Origin: Erinaceus europaeus | Taxonomy: Eukaryota; Chordata; Mammalia; Eulipotyphla; Erinaceidae | Assembly (NCBI RefSeq): GCF_950295315.1 | Contig: NC_080170.1 | Span: 98,021,971 to 98,085,970, forward strand | DNA length: 64,000 nucleotides | Reading direction: 5' to 3' | Shown here: positions 469-64,000 of the stretch, piece by piece | Position numbering within the stretch: the first letter of the stretch is position 1 | Layout of the letters: every line of letters begins with the position of its first letter | Made by a program: the position numbers and the translations under genes | Notes under the pieces: generated by a model | What the model saw: the letters and a program-made list of their open reading frames with translations, nothing else | Told to the model about the DNA's origin: nothing | Databases searched by the model: none

Positions 469-475
469 AATGTGT

Positions 476-571
476 CACCTCTCCAGATTCATAGGAGGTC
501 TCGAAACTTTACATCAGGCTCAACCTGATGCTGTTGACTGGCTACGGAAGAAGGGCAAACGCTAGAAGAAG
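476..571 (+). mobile_element. 3' end of a Jockey-like non-LTR retrotransposon (short copy)
   Basis: These 96 bases match the 3' end of the larger element at 34982-36352 (which lies on the minus strand) with about two mismatches in 95 positions. The frame is open to a TAG at 563-565 and corresponds to the C-terminal residues of the reverse-transcriptase polyprotein, ending in a basic LRKKGKR. The stop codon is followed at once by GAAGAA, as in the large copy. AATGTGT occurs just before (469-475) and just after (572-578), a 7-bp target-site duplication. This is therefore a separate, extremely 5'-truncated insertion, not a duplication of the larger locus. Confidence 0.85.
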
Positions 572-678
572 AATGTGTTTTACATAATTAGTTAATTTTT
601 ATTATTATTTATGCTAAACATTTTCAATTTAGAAACAAATAAAGACAATAGAGAAGGAAGTCTGGAAAAAAAATTAAC

Positions 679-34480: not shown

Positions 34481-34981
34481 TCTTACCTGCACCCTCCCTC
34501 TCTGTGATTACTGCTAGTCCAGGTAGATTTAACCAGATCAAAAGTAGACTGATGAACTGGCTCTTCACACATCTGTCCACCCACCCCTCCATCCATGTTC
34601 TAGTGTCTTGCATTTACTGATTTCTCTGCGTAAATGATTTCATCATGTAAAATTTTAATCTCTAATGTGATACTGCAGAACATACACTATAATAAGTATG
34701 TAAGGAAATGGAGACCTTCATCTTTGAGTCATCTAAATATCTGGTAACCACATCTTTATTTTACCGTGGCTGTTTTCATTTTCCACTTAGTTCTTTATGT
34801 AGAAAATTGCAGGGGCCAGCCGGTGGCACACTTGGTTAAGCTCACACATTAAAGTGCCTGAGGACTTGGGTTCAAGCTCCTGATCCTCATCTGCAGGGGG
34901 AAGAATTCACAAGTGGTGAAGCATAGCTGCAGGTACCTCTCTGTCTCTCTATCTCTCCCCTCTCAATCTCTCTCTGTCTCT

Positions 34982-36352
34982 TCTTCTTCTTCTAGCGTTT
35001 GCCCTTCTTCCGTAGCCAGTCAACAGCATCAGGTTGAGCCTGATGTAAAGTTTCGAGACCTCCTTTGAATCTGGACAGGTGGCAGTCTTGACTATGTGGG
35101 TCATAGTCTGTCTGTAGACGCAGGGGCAGTTCGGGTCATCTCTGGCTCCCCAGCGGTGGAACATAGCGGCGCACCGGCCATGGCCTGTTCGATAGCGATT
35201 GAGGAGGACCCAATCATAACGTGCTAGGTCAAAGCCGGGTTGACGCTTGCAGGGGTCTGTGATGAGGTGTTTGTTCTTTACCTCAGCTGACTGCCAGCTC
35301 TGTTTCCAAGAGACTGGAACAGAGAAGTTCAGTGTAGGCGTAGGGGACCAGATTGGGTGACGAGACGTCAAGCGTTGGACAGGGTGGGCGAAGATATCCG
35401 CGTATATTGGCAGGTCCGGTCGAGCGTAGACATGGGAAATGAACTTAGATGATGCCGCATCCTGATGAATATCTGGCGGGGCGATGTTGCTAAGAACTGG
35501 CAGCCATGGAACCGGGGTGGAACGGATGGTTCCAGAAATTATCCTCATGGAGGAATATAATTTGGAATTGACCAAGTGGACATGGGGGCTACGGAACCAT
35601 ACTGGGGCACAGTATTCTGCAGTGGAATAGCATAATGCCAGAGATGATGATCGTAGTGTGGAAGCGCTCGTGCCCCATGAGGAGCTGGCCAGTCTTGCAA
35701 TGATGTTATTCCTCGCGCCCACCTTTGCTGCAGTTTTTATGAGATGTTTGTGAAATGACAGAGTGCGATCGAGAGTAACGCCAAGATAGACTGGCTGGGC
35801 TTCATGCCGGATTCTTGTATCTCCAAGCTGCACATTAAGCTCACATGAGGCCGAGGCATGGTGTAGATGGAAAACAGATGATACCGTTTTTGCAGTGCTA
35901 GGGATTAGTCGCCATTTTTTACAGTAATCAGATATCAGAGACATGTCTTTCGTGAGTGTTTCCTCGAGGATGTCGAACTTGGATGCCTGAGTTGCACAGC
36001 AGATGTCATCGGCATAGATGAACTTCCTTGAAGAAGTTTCTGGGAGGTCATTGATGTAAATATTAAATAGCGTAGGAGCCAGAACAGAGCCCTGGGGGAG
36101 GCCACTTGAGACAAGTCTCCATCTGCTAGACTTGTCACCCAGATGCACCCGGAATCTTCTGTTTTGGAGAAGAAATGATATAGTGTTGGCCACCCATGGA
36201 GGCAGGAATCTTGAGATCTTGACTAGGAGACCACGGTGCCAGACCATGTCATAGGCTGCTGTGAGATCAACAAAGACAGCACCCATCTTTAAATTCTTCT
36301 GAAATCCATTTTCAATGTAAGTTGAGAGGGCCAGGGCTTGTTCACAGGTAGA
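34982..36352 (-). mobile_element. Jockey/CR1-like non-LTR retrotransposon, 5'-truncated
   Basis: A 1,371-bp insertion on the minus strand, bounded by an 11-bp target-site duplication within a SINE. Sequence homologous to the family begins at the very edge of the insertion (the frame reads STCEQALALS just inside 36352), so the 5' end was lost at integration. The 3' end is a stop codon (34993-34995) followed at once by about four GAA units, with no poly(A) and no 3' UTR. It is more GC-rich than the host sequence around it. L1 proteins of this window have a different RT signature. From memory, related ORFs occur in invertebrates and fishes; I know of none in mammals, but could not search. Confidence 0.9.
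34993..36352 (-). pseudogene. Reverse transcriptase (ORF2-type) of the Jockey-like element, truncated, one frameshift
   Basis: This is the C-terminal part of a non-LTR retrotransposon polyprotein that would copy element RNA into DNA at a nicked target. The frame is open from 36352 with no stop for about 420 codons. In order it shows RT motif A (GAVFVDLTAAYDMVWHRGLL, the Asp of VDLTAAYD at about 36260), motif B (SSGLPQGSVLAPTLFNIYIN), motif C with an intact YADD (near 36020), a thumb/connector with YLGVTLDRTLSF, then AEYCAPVWF and WLPVLSNIAPP, and a Cys/His cluster (CPC...TMTHIV). The N-terminal endonuclease is absent. Near 35085-35089 one base appears missing: the alternative frame beyond it restores the C-terminal ending seen in the copy at 476-571, while the open frame itself runs out past the true stop to 34949. 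With the endonuclease gone and the frame broken it cannot be active, but decay is slight. Confidence 0.9.
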
Positions 36353-36590
36353 TCTCTGTCTCTATCCAGTAATAAGTAAATTTCATAAAAAGACTATTAA
36401 AAAAACCCTAGAAATTACATACCAAAAGGTATATCCATGTACTGAAAGGTTAACAAAATATTCTTCTGTCACCCTGTGTGTAACAGCAGTGCACAACAAC
36501 CTACTTATGACCAGAGACAATGACCATCGCCGTGACTCCTTCCTTTGACTTTTAATGCCATTTTTGCTTTATTTTTTGGGATAAATATTT

Positions 36591-40247: not shown

Positions 40248-40806
40248 CTAACCTGGGGGTCATGATGGGCAGCAAGATGGTGTCTGCCAGCCGGGTCGTT
40301 CAGGTAGTCAAGCCACATACTCCATTAATAAGGTTTCCTGATAGAAGAGACCATCCTAAACCCAACGTGTCAGACGTTTTTGGAGCAGCAGGACTGCCAT
40401 CTCACTCTTCAGTTTCACAGCATTCTAAGGGAAGTAAAACATCTGACTGGTTGATGCATCAGGGCCCACCAGACACTGCAGAAATACTAAAAACATTACC
40501 TCAAAAATACAGAAGGAAACTTGTGTCTCAAGAAGAAATGGAATATATCCAACGTGGAGGCCCAGAATAATCAATGACATTGTGGCTGCTGTTTGTCATC
40601 AGACAAAAGAACAGTCTATCATAAAGGACTTCCAAAATGACAAATTGTACATTAAGCAACTTTAATAAATATTCTGTAAAAAGGAAACATAGGAAATTGA
40701 GAAGGACACTTGCACCTCCTAATTTATGTATCTTGGTCAGCTTATCCACAAGCTTACCTAATTGTTTATGTACTTCATACTTATTAAAGTGTGCATTTAT
40801 AAAAAA
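40248..40806 (+). mobile_element. Processed (L1-mediated) copy of the MRPS36/KGD4 mRNA
   Basis: An intronless copy of an mRNA: a short 5' UTR, a 102-codon open frame (40262-40570), a 3' UTR with ATTAAA at 40783-40788, and an A-run from 40801. AAAATTAAGAAAAG at 40234-40247 and AAAATTAAGAATAG at 40807-40820 are a 14-bp target-site duplication with one mismatch. Poly(A), the duplication and the lack of introns show LINE-1 machinery made it. It lies next to a SINE and has no visible promoter of its own. Confidence 0.92.
40262..40570 (+). pseudogene. MRPS36: MRPS36 (KGD4) retrocopy, open frame intact
   Basis: The 102-residue frame starts MMGSKMVSASRVVQVVKPH and ends QEEMEYIQRGGPE. This is recognisably the small mitochondrial protein named MRPS36, now understood as the KGD4 subunit that anchors the E3 component to the 2-oxoglutarate dehydrogenase complex in the mitochondrial matrix. 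From memory the parent is about 103 residues; this copy seems one residue shorter around the SSVSQHSKGSK segment and has several substitutions in the middle (VSDVFGAAG and SDWLMHQG), while the N-terminal core and C-terminus are well kept. There is no stop or frameshift. An intact frame may only mean the copy is young; the functional gene should be multi-exonic and elsewhere. A longer open frame beginning at 40130 is just upstream SINE read-through. Confidence 0.88.
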
Positions 40807-47660: not shown

Positions 47661-47970
47661 TAATGTGTCCTGGAGCTCCGCTTCCCCAGAGCCCTTCCCC
47701 ACTAGGGAAAAAGAGAGACAGGCTGGGAGTATGGATCCACCTGTCAACACCCATGTTCAGCAGGGAAGCAATTACAGAAGTCAGACCTTCCACCTTCTGC
47801 ATCCCACAATGACCTTGGGTCCATACTCCCAGAGGGTTAATTAAAGAATAGGAAAGTTATCAGGGGAGGGGATGGGATACAAAGTTCTGGTGGTGGGAAT
47901 TGAGTGGAGTTGTACCCTCTTATCCTATGGCTTAGTCATTGTTTCCTTTTTATAAATAAAACAAAAAAAA
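47661..47970 (+). mobile_element. R3 repeat copy 8 (3' 300 bp)
   Basis: The common R3 3' end (CCTGGAGCTCCGCTTCCCCA to TTTATAAATAAAAC), 5'-truncated at 47661. Its A-tail runs into the GAA microsatellite, and the duplicated AAGAACTCTTTCCT at 48337-48350 closes the insertion. Confidence 0.88.
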
Positions 47971-48234
47971 GCGAAGAAGAAGAAGAAGGAGAAGAAGGAG
48001 AAGAAGAAGAAGAAGAAGAAGAAGAAGAAGAAGAAGAAGAAGAAGAAGAAGAAGAAGAAGAAGAAGAAGAAGAAGAAGAAGAAGAAGGAGAAGAAGAAGA
48101 GGGAGAAGAAGGAGAAGAAGAAGAAGAAGAAGAGGGAGAAGAAGAAGAAGAACAAGAAGAAGAAGAAGAAGAAGAAGAAGAGGGAGAAGAAGGAGAAGAA
48201 GAAGAAGAAGAAGAAGAAGAAGAAGAAGAAGAAG

Positions 48235-48266
<32 letters not shown>

Positions 48267-48340
48267 GAAGAAGAAGAAGAAGTAGAAGAAGAAGAAGACG
48301 AAGAGGGAAAAGGAGAAGGAGAAGGAGGAGAAGAAGAAGA
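47971..48340. repeat. Long (GAA)n microsatellite
   Basis: About 370 bases of GAA with scattered GGA, CAA and TAG variants. Arose in the tail of R3 copy 8. The Glu-rich 161-codon frame over it is not a gene. Confidence 0.97.
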
Positions 48341-48404
48341 ACTCTTTCCTGAAACTGAGTTATGTAATTCTAGGAACCATATTGACTAATTTGATCACTC
48401 AAAA

Positions 48405-51867: not shown

Positions 51868-54800
51868 TCAGTAGTATTCCATTGTGTCTATATACCACAA
51901 CTTGCTCAGCCACTCATCTGTTGTTGGACACCTGGGTTGCTTCCAGGTTTTGGCTATTACAAATTGTGCTGCCAAGAACATATGTGTACACAGATCTTTT
52001 TGGATGGATGTGTTGGGTTCTTTAGGATATATCCCCAGGAGAGGAAATGCAGGATCATAGGGAAGGTCCATTTCTAGCCTTCTGAGAGTTCTCCAGACTG
52101 TTCTCCACAGAGGTTGGACCAATTGACATTCCCACCAGCAGTGCAGGAGGGTTCCTTTGCCCCCACACCCTCTCCAGCATTTGCTGCTGTTACCTTTTCT
52201 GATGTATGGCATTCTCACAGGAATGAAGTGGTATCTCATTGTTGTCTTGATTTGCATTTCTCTGACAATCAAAGACATGGAGCATTTTTTCATGTGTTTC
52301 TCGGCCTTTTGGATCTCTTCTGTGGTGAATATTCTGTTCAAGTCCTCCCCCCATTTTTGGATGGGGTTATTTGTTGTCTTGTTGTTGAGTCTGGCAAGCT
52401 CTTTATATATGTTGGTTATTAAACTCTTGTCTGATGTATGGCATGTAATGATCTTCTCCCATTCTGAGAGGGGTCTCTTGGTTTGGGTAGTGGTTTCTTT
52501 TGCTGTGAAGAAGCTTTTTAATTTGATGTAGTCCCATAGGTTTATACTTGCTTTAGTCTTCTTTGTAATTGGATTTGTTTCATTGAAAATGTCTTTAAAA
52601 TTTATGCAGAAAGTGGGCCCTATCCAATGGTTCCAGGACTGAGGGAAGTAGAGGCTCTATAGTGGAGATGTAAGGTTCCTGCTGTGTTAGGGTTCAAAAA
52701 GACAATCGATAGTTAATGTTATCATCACATTATTTGGTAATAGGGTTAACTTTGAAAAGTCCTTTTGTTAGGGTTTGCTGTACAGTACCCAGTATCTTGT
52801 ATATAGCTGTGCTATTGGTTGCTTCTGATCTACTTGGTCTAGGCTTTTGAGAGAGTCTGCATATCAATCACACTGCATATATTGAGAAAAGATTCAGTTT
52901 GTGTTTTGAAAAACTTTGAGACATACAATTAATTTTCCCCCTCTCGTATTGGATAGGGCCCACTTTCCCTTATGCCTCTCCCAATCCATATCAAATAATA
53001 TTGCATCTGCCGATCACAACCTAACCAACACAATGATTGCCACCTCAACATGCTTCACTTCAGACTGTGTCTAGAGACTACACGTGTGGAATGACAACCC
53101 TTCAGCTTCATTACTCGGGTGAGACCTTTCCTTTCATAGTATACTCTAATTCTATCTCAGGTGGTTCACTTTCTAACAAAGTCCCAAAACCTAGATATAC
53201 ATCAGTTTCTGTGAGAGAGAGCATATGTTCACACGTATCCGTAAACTACTGCAAAATATATACCTGAAAGCAGAAGTACACTAGAGTTTGCAGTGAGTAT
53301 CCCCCTAATACTTTTTCTCCACTATTCCAAGCTTTGGGTCCATGATTGCTCAACAACTTGTTTGGCTTCGTATGTTAACTCTCTTTTCAGTCACCAGGTT
53401 CCAGATGTCATCAGGATGCCGGCCAGGCTTCCCTGGACTGAAGACCCCACCGATGTGTCCTGGAGCTTCGCTTCCCCAGACACCCACCCTACTAGGGAAA
53501 GAGAGAGGCAGACTGGGAGTATGGACCAACCAGCCAATGCCCATGTTCAGTGGGGAAGCAATTACAGAAGCCATACCTACTACCTTCTGCAACCCACAAT
53601 GACCCTGGGTCCATGCTCCCAGAGGGATAGAGAATGGGAAAGCTATAGGGGAGAGGGTGGGATATGGAGAATGGGTGGTGGGAATTGTGTGGAATTGTAC
53701 CCCTCCTACCCTATGGCTTTGTTAATTAATCCTTTCTTCAATAAAAAAGAAAAAAATTATGCGGAAAAGAGTTCTGCCAATAATTTCCTCTAAGTATTTG
53801 ATAGTTTGTGGTCTAACATCCAAGTCCTTGATCCACTTGGAATTTACTTTTGTATTTGGTGAAATACAGTGATTCAGTTTCATTCTTCTGCATGTTTCAA
53901 CCCATTGTTTCCAACACCATTTGTTGAAGAGACTCTGCTTTCCCCAGGTAATAGTCTGGGCCCCTTTGTCAAAGATTAGATGTCCATAGTTATGTGGCCT
54001 CATTTCTGGGCTCTCAATTCTATTCCACTGGTCAGTGTGTCTGTTCATGTTCCAGTACCAAGCAGTTTTGATGACAATGGCCCTATAATACAGTTTGAGA
54101 TCTGGGAGTGTGATGCCTCTGGTTCTGTTCTTTTTTCTCAAGACTGTTTTGGCAATTCTAGGTCTTTTCTGGTTCCAGATAAACATTTGTAGCATTTTTT
54201 CTATTCTCCTAAAAAATGTGTGTGGGATCTTGATGGGGATAGCATTAAATTTGTAGATGGCTCTGGGTAATATATTCATTTTGATGATGTTAATTCTTCC
54301 AACCCATGAACATGGAATATCTTTCCACTTCTTTGTGTCTTTTTCAGTTTCCTTGAGTAGTGACTCATAATTTTCAGTATACAAGTCTTTCACTTCTTTG
54401 GTTAGGTTTACTCCTAGATATTTTATTGTTTTTGTTGCTATAGTAAAAGGAATTGGTTTCTGGATTTCAATTTCTTCTAACTTAGTGTTTGCATAGAGGA
54501 ATGCCACTGACTTTTGAATGTTAATTTTGTAGCTTGACACCTTACTGTATTCCCTGATGATTTCTAAAAGCTTCTTGCTGGAGTCCTCAGGTTTTTCCAT
54601 GTATACTATCATGTTATCTGCAAATAAGGAGAGTTTGACTTCTTCTCTTCCAATTTGTAGCCCTTTAATTCCTTGCTCCTGCCTCATTGCTATGGCAAGA
54701 ACTTCCAGCACTATGTTGAATAGTAATGGTGATAGTGGGCAGCCCTATCTAGTCCCTGATCTGAGGGGAAATGTTTCCAGTTTTTCACCATTGAGTATAA

Positions 54801-56706
54801 TGTTGGCTGTAGGTTTGCTATATATAGACTCCACTATCTTCAGGAATTTTCCATCTATTCCCATTTTTTGTAGTGTTTTGATCATAAATGGATGTTGTTT
54901 TTTGTCAAAGGCTTTCTCTGTATCTATTGATATGACCATGTGGTTTTTGGTCTTGCTTTTGTTGATGTGGTGGATCACATTGATTGATTTACGTATATTA
55001 AACCAACCTTGCATGCCTGGGATAAACCCCACTTGGTCATGATGAACAATCTTTTTGATATACTGCTGTATCCGCTTGGCTAGAATTTTGTTTAATATTT
55101 TCACATCTATGTTCATCAGAGATATTGGTCTGTAGTTTTCTTTTTTGGTTGTGTCCCTGTCTGCTTTTGGTATCAGGGTGGTGTTGGCTTCATAGAAGCT
55201 GGCAGGGAGTATTCCAGTGTCTTCAATCTTCTGGAAGACTTTTAAAAGTAGAGATATTAGTTCTTCTTTGAAGGTTTTGTAAGAATTCATTTGGTCCAGG
55301 ACTTTTATTTTTGAGGAGATTTTTGATAACTCTTTCAATTTCATTAGCTGTGATGGGCCTGTTCATGTTATCCACTTCCTCTTTACTTAGTTTTGGAAGT
55401 TGGCAGGTATCTAGGAAATCATCCATTTCTTCCAGGTTCTCTAGCTTGGTGGCATATAGTTGTTCATAGAAACCTCGCATGATATGTTGAATTTCTGTGG
55501 TGTCTGTTGTGATATCTCCTCTTTCATTTACTATCTGACTTATTTGGGTCTTCTCCCTTTTGTGTTTTGTGAGTCTGGCTAAAGGTTTGTCGATTTTGTT
55601 ACTCTTTCAAAGAACCAACATTTACTTTCATTGATCTTTTGTATGGTTTGCCTATTCTCAATGTTATTTATTTCTGCCCTAACTTTAGTGATTTCTGACC
55701 TTCTCGTTGCTTTAGGGTTACTTTGTTGTTCTTATTCTAGGTCGTTAAGGTGTGCAATCAGGCTGTTTATTTGTGCTTTTTCTTGTTTCCTAATGTGTGC
55801 TTGTATAGCTATGAACTTCCCTCTTAGGACTGCTTTAGCTGTGTCCCAAATATTTTGATAGCTTGTGTCTTCATTTTCATTGAACTCTCAAAACATTTTG
55901 ATTTCTTCCTTGATTTCCTCTTTGACCCAGAAGTTGTTAAGAAGTGTACTGTTGAGCTTCCACATTTTGGGACTGTTACTAATCTTTTGTTGATTGTTAA
56001 GTGTTAGTTTAATTCCGCTGTGGTCTGAGAAGATGCTTGGGATGATTTCAATGCTCTTGAATTGGCTGATGCTGTCTTTGTGGCCTAACATATGGTCTGT
56101 CCTTGAGAATGACCCATGTGGATTTGAGTAAAATGTGTATTCCAGTTTCTTGGGATGAATGACTCTGAAAATGTCCAATAGTTCTAGTTTAGCTATATCT
56201 TCATTTAGCTCCCTTATGTCTTTATTGATTTTCTGCCTGGATGATCAGTCAAGCTGAGATAGTGGGGTGTTGAAGTCCCCTACTATGATTGTGTTACTGT
56301 TAATATATTGCTGTAGCTCTTTCAGTAGAAGTTTGATGTATTTAGATGGCTTCTCATTGGGTGTATAGATGTTAATAATTGTTAGGTCCTCTTGATTGAC
56401 TGATCCTCTGAGCATTAAGTAGTGTCCATTCCTATCTTTTTTAATCTTATCTATTTTAAAGTCTATCATGTCACATATGAGAATAGCTGTTCCTGCCATT
56501 TTTTGTGGTCTATTGGCTTATATGATAGTTTTCCATCCTTTCACTTTAAGTCTGTGTTTGTCTTGTTGAGTTAGGTGGGTTTCCTGTAGACAGCATATTG
56601 TTGGGTTGTTTTTTCTGATCCATCTTCCTACTCTGTGTCTTTTAATAGGTGAATTCAAGCCATTGACATTTATTGATATCAAAGATTGAAGATATTTTAA
56701 TGCCAT
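51868..56706 (-). pseudogene. L1 ORF2 (endonuclease/reverse transcriptase), inactivated
   Basis: ORF2p nicks target DNA and reverse-transcribes L1 RNA. Starting from MALKYLQSLISINVNGLNSP at 56706, the endonuclease shows QETHL, GDFNTPLS and SDHSG. The RT region shows the [10 protein letters not shown] block, motif A ([10 protein letters not shown]) and, after a TAG stop at 54745-54747 in place of the Gln of the expected RQGCPLSP motif, motif C as LFADNM instead of FADD: the second catalytic Asp is Asn (codon at 54613-54615). The C-terminal part follows at 52341-51868 ([29 protein letters not shown] stop). Several further frameshifts occur (for example around 55300 and 56200), and the R3 insertion at 52613-53751 splits the gene. 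It is not functional. Confidence 0.92.
52613..53751 (+). mobile_element. R3 repeat copy 9, with inverted 5' part
   Basis: The 3' part (52951-53751) is sense on the plus strand and ends in the common A-rich tail. The 5' part (52613-52950) is in opposite orientation relative to the intact order seen at 60615-61861. The 13-bp GTGGGCCCTATCC at 52613 appears again as its reverse complement at 52951-52963. The whole is flanked by AAATTTATGCAGAAA (52598-52612) and AAAAATTATGCGGAAA (53752-53767). This matches L1 twin priming. The insertion interrupts L1A ORF2. Confidence 0.87.
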
Positions 56707-56843
56707 TCTTGTAGAATTTTAGAGTGTTTTGATATATGGCCTATTTGTGGTGGTCTGATTGTTTATAGGAGACATTTCAGAACTTCTTTCAGGGGAGGCT
56801 TGGTGATGGTTGATTCCTTCAACTGTTGCTTGTCTGAGAAGGT

Positions 56844-57506
56844 TTAGATGCCTCCATCTAGTCTGAATGACAGTCTAGCAGGATATAGTATTCTTGGCTG
56901 AAAGCCTTTCTCATTGAGTACTCGACAGATATCTTGCCATTCTCTTCTGGCCTGTAGTGTTTGTATGGAGAAGTCTGCTGCTAATCTCATGGGTTTTCCT
57001 TTGTAGGTGACTCTTTGTTTTTCTCTTGCAGTCTTCAGGATCCTTTCTTTATCCTTATTCCTTTCCATTCTAAGTATGACATGTCTTGGTGTCTTTAGGT
57101 CTGGGTTAATTCTGTTTGGGACCCTCTGGGCTTCTTGAATCTTTATGTCTTTGATGTTGTCTAGACTAGGGAAGTTTTCAGCTATTATAGCCTGGAAAAT
57201 GCTTTCTTCCTCTCCTTCTCTTTCTTCCTCTGGTATGCCAATAATGCATATATTGTTTCTTTTGAAGTCATCCCATAGGACTCTGTTGTTGCTTTCAGCA
57301 TCTCTTAATCTCTTTTTGAGATCTCTTACTTCTTTTTTAGTTGTCTCTAATTCATCCTCAGTCTTGCTAATTCTGTCTTCAGCCTCATTTATTCTATTCT
57401 CTCTGCCCTCTACTGTTTTCTGGAGTTCAACTATTTTGTTGCCCTGCTCTGAAGAGCTCACTTCTGTTTTACATGTGGGGTCTTCTATTTCAGAGAGTCG
57501 CTTCAT
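56844..57506 (-). pseudogene. L1 ORF1 (RNA-binding protein), 5'-truncated
   Basis: A 220-codon open frame with a coiled-coil region (heptad-like ENRINEAEDRISKTEDELET), an RRM-type middle (NICIIGIPEEEREGEEE, then HVILRMERNKDKERILKTAR) and the C-terminal domain (PARLSFRLDGGI). This is the L1 nucleic-acid chaperone that coats L1 RNA as a trimer. The N-terminal part is missing: the target duplication at 57452-57465 places the L1 boundary inside this open frame, so the first ~20 codons (57452-57506) belong to the older outer element by chance continuity. Confidence 0.82.
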
Positions 57507-57639
57507 TTTTCATGAATCTTTCCTTTCCAACATCTTTGCAGATACTCTTTCCTCTCACTGACTTATTCTACTTACTAGGCCTCCATTCCATCCAAAGTGT
57601 CCTTCATATCCTGTAGCTCTTTTCTGAGTTAACTATTTT

Positions 57640-61861: not shown

Positions 61862-64000
61862 GATTTATATGACTACACTTTACTAGGAGTGTACATAAAC
61901 ACCATTCCCACCAAAAAAGACTCTGTCCCATCCCACCAAACCACCCCCACATCCCACTGGCCCAGGAAGCTTCATGTCCACTCCCCCTCAGCACAGGGTT
62001 TTTACTTTGGTGCCCTACTTTCAATTTAGTCAGATCCTGCTTTTAGTTTCCCTTTCAGATCTTCTTTATCAATTTCTATTGATGAGTGGGATCATCCCAT
62101 ACTCATCTTTATCTTTCTGACTTAGCTCACTTAACATAATTCCTTCTAGCTCTGTCCAAGATGGGTCAGGGAAGGTGGATTCATTGTTCTTGATAGCTGC
62201 ATAGTATTCCATTGTGTATATATACCACAGATTTCTCAGCCACTCATCTGTTATTGCGCACCTGCGTTGCTTCCAGGTTTTAGCTATTATGAATTGTGCT
62301 GCTACGAACATAGGAGTACACACTTCTTTTTGGTTGGGTGTTATGGAGTCCTTGGGGTATAACCCCAGGAGAGGAATTACTGGATCATATGGAAGGTCCA
62401 TGTCTAGCCTTCTGAGAGTTTTCCAGACTGCTCTCCACAGAGGCTGGACCAATTTACATTCCCACCAGCAATGTAAAAGGGTTCCTCTGTCCCCACAACG
62501 TCTCCAGCATTTGTTGCTGCTGTCCTTTTTGATGTATGCCATTCTTACAGGAGTGAGGTGGTATCTAAGTGTTGTCTTAATTTGCATTTCTCTGACAATC
62601 AGTGACCTAGAGCAGTTTTTCATATGTTTGTTAGCCTTTTGGATCTCCTCTGAGGTGAATGTTTTGTTTATATCCTCTGCCCATTTTTGGATGGGGTCAT
62701 TTGCTTTTTTGTTGCTAAGTTTGCTCAGCTCTTTATATATTTTGGTGATTAGTTTCTTGTCCGATGTATGGCATGTGGAGATCTTCTCCCATTCTGTGAG
62801 GGGTCTCTTTGTTTAATAGTTCCTTTTGATGTGCAGAAGCTTTTCCATTTGATGTGGTCCAATTGTTTTGTTTCTGCTTTAGTCTTCCTTGCAACTGGGT
62901 TTGATTCATCAAATATGTCCTTGAGGTGTAGGTAGGAAACTGTTTTACCAATGTTTTCTTCTAAGTATTTGATTGTTTGTGGTCTAACATCCAGGTCTTT
63001 GATCCATTTGGAGTTGATTTTTGTTTCTGGTGAGATAAAGTGGTTCAATTTCATTCTTCTGCATGTTACAACCCAGTTTTCCCAGTACCATTTATTGAAG
63101 AGAGCCTCCTTCTTCCATTTAATACTTTGGGCCCCCTTATCAAAGATTAGATGTTCATAGGTGTGGGGATTTATTTCTGGGCTTTTAATTCTGTTGCACT
63201 GGTCTGTGTGCCTATTTTTGTTCCAATACCAGGTTGTTTTGATGATGATGGCTTTATAATATAGTTTGATATCTGGGAGTGTGATGCCTCCATTTCTGTT
63301 TCTTTTCCTCAAGATGGTTTTGGCAATTCTAGGTGTTTTCAGGTTCCAGATAAATGATTGTTGTGTTTGTTCTATTCTCTTAAAGAAGCTTGGTGGAAGT
63401 TTGATGGGTATTTCATTAAATTTGTATATGGCTCTGGGGAGAATATTTATTTTGATGATATTTATTCTTCCAATCCATGAGCATGGGATATCTTTACATT
63501 TCTTGTTATCAGTTTCTATTTCCTTGAGTAGTGACTCATAGTTTTCAGTATACAAGTCTTTTACTTCCTTGGTCAGCTTTATTCCTATATATGTGATTGA
63601 TTTTGCTGAAACAGTAAATGGGAATGATTTCTGGGTGTCTTCTTATTCAGATTTAGTGTTTCCATAAAGAAATGCCACTGGTTTTTGTACATTGATTTTG
63701 TAGCCTGACACCTTGCTATATTGCCTAATAAGTTCCAGTAATTTTCTGCTGGATTCTTTAGGTTTTTCTATGTATACTATTATATCATCTGCAAATAGTG
63801 AGAGCTTGACTTCTTCCCTTCCATTTGATTTCTTTCCTTTGATTTCTTTCTCTTGCCTGATTGCTATGGCAAGAACTTCCAATACTATATTGAAGAGTAA
63901 CGGTGACAGTGGACAGCCCTGTCTAGTCCCCGATCTGAGAGGGAATGCTTTCAGCTTCTGTCCATTGAGTATTATGTTGGCTATAGGTTTGCTATATACA
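61862..64000 (-). mobile_element. L1 (second subfamily, L1B), running off the right edge
   Basis: Antisense L1 ORF2 C-terminal half (62069 to the window edge) with a proximal 3' UTR (61862-62068) unrelated to that of L1A. The rest of the element lies beyond 64000. Confidence 0.92.
62069..64000 (-). pseudogene. L1B ORF2, C-terminal half, frameshifted
   Basis: Three open pieces in L1 ORF2 order: 63882-63643 with an intact [13 protein letters not shown] (RT motif C), 63555-62749 (thumb and connector, [20 protein letters not shown]), and 62623-62069 (C-terminal Cys-rich part, [20 protein letters not shown], ending with a short extension beyond WYIYTMEYY). Frameshifts around 63600 and 62800 separate them. 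At amino-acid level it is clearly distinct from L1A (different C-terminus and several substitutions), so two L1 lineages coexist. Upstream RT and endonuclease lie outside the window. Confidence 0.9.

Follow-up and report, generated by a model that had tools for sequence, protein, structure and literature searches.

A young, 5′-truncated non-LTR retrotransposon in a hedgehog SINE, most likely a member of the Vingi-1 family

Introduction

A stretch of 64,000 nucleotides from the genome of Erinaceus europaeus (hereafter, the window) contains an insertion that encodes part of a reverse transcriptase (RT). An initial annotation described this insertion as a recent Jockey/CR1-like retrotransposon and a candidate for horizontal transfer, perhaps by way of a parasite. 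The locus thus raises the questions of which non-LTR (LINE) family the insert belongs to, how young it is, and whether the family came to the hedgehog lineage from another animal. As detailed below, the insert is most likely a copy of a hedgehog family that has been in print since 2011, and not a new one.

Results and Discussion

Anatomy of the insertion and its target site

The insert is 1371 bp long, lies on the minus strand and interrupts a tRNA-type SINE, which we take to be the hedgehog-type SINE (Table 1). An 11-bp target site duplication (TSD), TCTCTGTCTCT, flanks the insert on both sides; because the insertion site is rich in CTCTCTGTCTCT-like repeats (five copies), this match is weak taken alone. 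The flanks give a stronger sign of insertion. Once joined without the insert, they can be aligned across the joint with 13 SINE stretches elsewhere in the window, and no gap exceeds 5 nt in the 30 columns shown. These results uphold the initial description of a 1.37-kb insertion with an 11-bp duplication inside a SINE. SINE-like sequence in the window was found in 34 merged intervals, covering 5409 bases.

Table 1. Positions of the insertion, its parts, its target and a second copy in the window.
Feature	Position	Strand	Basis or remark
5′-truncated non-LTR retrotransposon insertion, most likely Vingi-1 family	34982..36352	(-)	ORF, TSD, interrupted SINE, CpG contrast
TSD copy 1, TCTCTGTCTCT	34971..34981
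TSD copy 2, TCTCTGTCTCT	36353..36363
Interrupted tRNA-type SINE, left part	34810..34981	(+)	Joined flanks align with other SINE copies
Interrupted SINE, right end	36364..36405	(+)	End approximate, taken from longest alignments
RT and C-terminal region, 421 intact codons without stop	35090..36352	(-)	407/421 identical to P0002
RT active-site motif YADD	36005..36016	(-)	Residues 113-116 of ORF
C-terminal end past frameshift, other frame, to TAG	34992..35089	(-)	Comparison with P0002, tblastn
(AAG)n tail adjoining stop codon	34982..34991	(-)	Sequence; same end in second copy
Second copy, same family, 3′-terminal 101 bp	473..573	(+)	98/101 identical, same 3′ end; possible 5-7 bp duplication (AA)TGTGT

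The stop-to-stop frame comprises 470 codons, and the 421 of them that run from position 36352 down to 35090 match P0002, the nearest protein among the matches listed, an ENA protein encoded on a contig of 2072 bp. An RVT_1 domain was identified in the insert ORF (P0001) by Pfam (E = 2.8e-18), and the sole match of this ORF in the PDB was an R2 retrotransposon protein (E = 1.3e-4). Along with the YADD motif, these findings bear out the initial description of a nearly undamaged RT of about 420 codons. A single frameshift occurs after residue 421, beyond which the C-terminus continues in another frame. The 14 replacements that separate the insert from P0002 imply about 21 substitutions in 1263 bases and, with weights of our own choice, 0.8 expected stops; with so few stops expected, an open frame is unsurprising in a copy of this youth and does not prove selection.

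The insert is truncated at its 5′ end, and approximately the last 45% of an endonuclease-RT protein of about 1000 aa remains. In a comparison with 50 of the 53 listed relatives whose length is 940-1020 aa, the missing upstream part amounts to a median of 55% of the protein; the other three relatives were left out, their alignments beginning past query residue 3. Endonuclease domains (PF03372/PF14529) are present together with RVT_1 (PF00078) in the listed relatives of about 1000 aa, and the insert lacks the endonuclease as a result of its 5′ truncation. No RNase H domain was matched by Pfam in P0001 or in the seven relatives scanned, one of which (P0054) ends before the C-terminus. The truncation is the ordinary 5′ truncation of LINEs, and it leaves this copy unable to transpose on its own.

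The insert is thus a dead-on-arrival, 5′-truncated copy of a young interspersed non-LTR family, and the general behaviour of LINEs suggests how it arose. An intact element located elsewhere would encode a protein with an endonuclease, an RT and a cysteine-rich C-terminus. This protein would nick the target and copy the element RNA by target-primed reverse transcription, starting at the (AAG)n 3′ end, and copying would often stop early, leaving a truncated copy between short duplications.

Age of the insertion

CpG dinucleotides, of which the insert has 49, occur there at an observed/expected ratio of 0.595, compared with 0.129 for the remainder of the window. None of 600 segments of the same length, which overlap, start every 100 bases and lie outside the insert, reached the ratio of the insert, the highest being 0.326. 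Among the 14 amino-acid differences between the insert and P0002, eight can be explained by CpG transitions in the window sequence and one by a CpG transition in P0002. In the phylogenetic tree, the two sequences share a stem of 0.48, from which the end branch of the window extends by 0.029 and that of P0002 by 0.007. The CpG contrast and the CpG decay on the window side together indicate that the main copy landed recently; it is a young insertion in a CpG-poor genome. A second, strongly 5′-truncated copy of the family lies near the start of the window, and its possible duplication is too short to carry much weight.

The GC content of the insert, like its CpG content, is well above that of the surroundings, as would also be the case if the insert were a contaminant or the product of an assembly chimera with foreign DNA. 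However, the TSD lies inside a resident SINE, the second copy shares the 3′ end of the insert and is located 34 kb away, and CpG sites have decayed on the window side. We therefore rejected contamination, which these observations make extremely improbable. In addition, the window contains a KGD4/MRPS36-like retrocopy (40262-40570, plus strand), open, apparently intronless and 102 codons long, whose best named matches are placental mammals (American black bear, 87%; best 120 of 314 matches), and this supports a mammalian origin of the window. Elsewhere in the window, long broken ORFs at 51868-57509 and 62069-63642 on the minus strand resemble L1 ORF1/ORF2 in their motifs; parts of 51868-57509 gave weak tblastn matches only, to relatives of the element. 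A GA-rich simple repeat at 47904-48389 (plus strand) reads as a poly-glutamate ORF.

Relatives of the encoded protein

The window ORF was searched against 5.8 billion proteins, which gave 1494 matches, and among the best 120 every row other than P0002 was at most 62% identical. With P0002 as query, 2384 matches were obtained, and the best other row among the best 120 was 63% identical. Organism names were attached to 8 of the 120 rows listed for the window ORF, namely two fishes (Synaphobranchus and Cirrhinus) and six arthropods (Cordylochernes, Nilaparvata, Choristoneura, Diaphorina, Uroleucon and Cyamophila). The search with P0002 added one named animal among the matches listed, the sand fly Phlebotomus papatasi (49%), which is not among the rows of the tree and is the sole named blood-feeder among these matches; its sequence is much too remote for it to have been a donor. 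With either query, the 120 matches listed include no named mammal, and none of them is labelled as Vingi, Ingi, Jockey or CR1. These searches, along with the CpG contrast and the CpG decay, agree with the initial view that a young LINE other than L1 is present in a mammal; none of the named matches listed is a close one.

In a quick tree of 121 rows (SH-aLRT only, midpoint root for drawing), the window, P0002 and both fishes fall within a clade of 72 rows (SH-aLRT 98), and all six named arthropods fall outside it. The sister group of the pair formed by the window and P0002 has a support of 83. With this support, and with relatives apart from P0002 at most 63% identical among the matches listed, we claim no nearest donor.

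It is worth adding that P0002 has an unusual N-terminus. Its residues 1-20 match the opposite strand of the element (window positions 35353-35412, plus strand; 85% over 20 residues, tblastn), so that the protein begins with the antisense of a more downstream stretch of the element itself. P0002 is thus read through a rearranged copy, perhaps 5′-inverted by twin priming, perhaps chimeric. Its host may be a hedgehog and the protein spans a rearranged copy; we therefore rejected P0002 as a sign of horizontal transfer.

Family identity

Vingi elements have an apurinic-type endonuclease upstream of the RT and lack an RNase H domain after it. Kojima and colleagues reportedly described two such hedgehog elements, Vingi-1_EE and Vingi-1_AAl, both without RNase H. 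They are said to have found no relatives in 33 other mammals, a distribution that implied horizontal transfer, and reportedly left room for vertical descent. The insert resembles Vingi-1 in several respects: it is a young LINE other than L1, its mammalian host carries hedgehog-type SINEs, its RT was found without an RNase H domain and has relatives with an endonuclease, and a probable horizontal origin has already been claimed for the family. Apart from its own 5′ truncation and frameshift, the insert is not known to differ from Vingi-1 as described. We infer from host, age and architecture, on which the name rests, that the insert belongs to the Vingi-1 family of hedgehogs, and we hold this assignment with high confidence. 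Ingi elements, which are trypanosome non-LTR elements, carry RNase H, whereas none was found in the insert ORF or the seven relatives scanned. The two clades are related according to the title of the 2011 paper on hedgehog Vingi non-LTR retrotransposons (Kojima, Kapitonov and Jurka, 2011). For Erinaceus, PMC3183009 gives Vingi-1N3_EE 311 copies with less than 1% divergence.

The insert shares with Jockey and CR1 elements a LINE organization with RVT_1 and YADD, and the initial annotation had placed it in a Jockey/CR1-like clade. Jockey elements end in a poly(A) tail and CR1 elements in octamer repeats, whereas the insert has (AAG)n directly after the stop codon, with neither poly(A) nor a CR1 octamer. 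Given this tail, and given that hedgehogs have a described young non-L1 LINE, the insert is probably neither Jockey nor CR1, and the earlier placement gives way to Vingi, an Ingi-related clade, as the most likely one. It could be argued that the insert represents a Jockey- or CR1-type LINE family that is as yet undescribed and whose recent invasion was independent of Vingi, as P0002 is its sole near-identical relative and all others are at most 63% identical among the matches listed. However, the (AAG)n tail is unlike that of either group, and a LINE of the right age is already described for hedgehogs in excerpts of PMC3183009; we consider a separate family of this kind quite improbable. Slightly less probable still is that the insert stems from another invader than Vingi-1, one that came later, is still moving and has its nearest living relatives in aquatic animals or in an unsampled hedgehog associate.

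The label “I-Jockey” is used in a 2025 survey of the African hedgehog Atelerix, Table 1 of which lists this class with 4476 copies and 2.232 Mb (PMC12026660). This class is perhaps Vingi. The same table also contains 51 unknown LINE consensus sequences, which might hold Vingi instead, and its copy number for LINE1 disagrees with the LINE total given in the text. Beyond hedgehogs, Vingi is mentioned for the migratory locust in a passage of PMC3391268.

Origin of the family

If the insert is a Vingi-1 copy, its family was probably transferred horizontally into the hedgehog lineage from another animal, as others have already claimed. One passage of PMC3183009 refers to “older likely horizontal transfers in mammals such as Vingi TEs in hedgehogs,” and to families common to several species. 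The word “older” indicates that the family may have entered well before its young copies arose. Thus, the transfer proposed in the initial annotation is plausible, but it is already in print, and the recent entry that accompanied it need not follow.

Alternatively, Vingi may have been inherited vertically from an old amniote Vingi, lost in other mammals and re-expanded late in hedgehogs. This would fit the presence of Vingi in reptiles, including Vingi-2_Acar, which is listed for Anolis in part of PMC3747384, and the listing of X12_LINE of the human genome as Vingi, given along with Vingi in reptiles in part of PMC5753468. Against it stand the absence of named mammals from both lists of 120 matches, the long stem (0.48) to the other rows of the tree, and the term “likely” transfer applied to hedgehog Vingi in the passage of PMC3183009. 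We regard vertical descent as unlikely, though clearly less so than a separate family; it concerns origin only and overlaps with the assignment to Vingi-1, so that the odds of these readings do not sum to one.

With regard to the route of a horizontal transfer, the suggested entry via a parasite drew no support from the matches listed, in which no tick, flea, nematode or flatworm is named, and in the tree it is the two named fishes, not the six named arthropods, that share the clade of the insert. Most of the matches listed carry no host name, and a parasite may still have been involved. Two scans of viral contigs for viral carriers, one with P0002 as query and one with an alignment, yielded no relative of the element.

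Horizontal transfers into Eulipotyphla have been published for other families, including that of Mariner_Tbel into the European hedgehog (PMC3517439, in part) and that of RTE1_Sar into the common shrew, the latter not having been found in the hedgehog by its authors (PMC6542046, in part). These families differ from that of the insert, as Mariner_Tbel is a DNA transposon and RTE1_Sar is an RTE LINE shared with nematodes. The main text of the Atelerix survey (PMC12026660) contains the word “horizontal” 0 times, and the main text of a vertebrate-wide survey of transfers (PMC7070016) contains neither “hedgehog” nor “Erinaceus.”

Implications

The insert matters little in itself, since it most likely adds a further copy to a family already published. 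For the question of the donor, the relatives apart from P0002, at most 63% identical among the matches listed, offer no close candidate. Overall, the insert shows that a foreign-looking LINE can be both young and real in a mammal.
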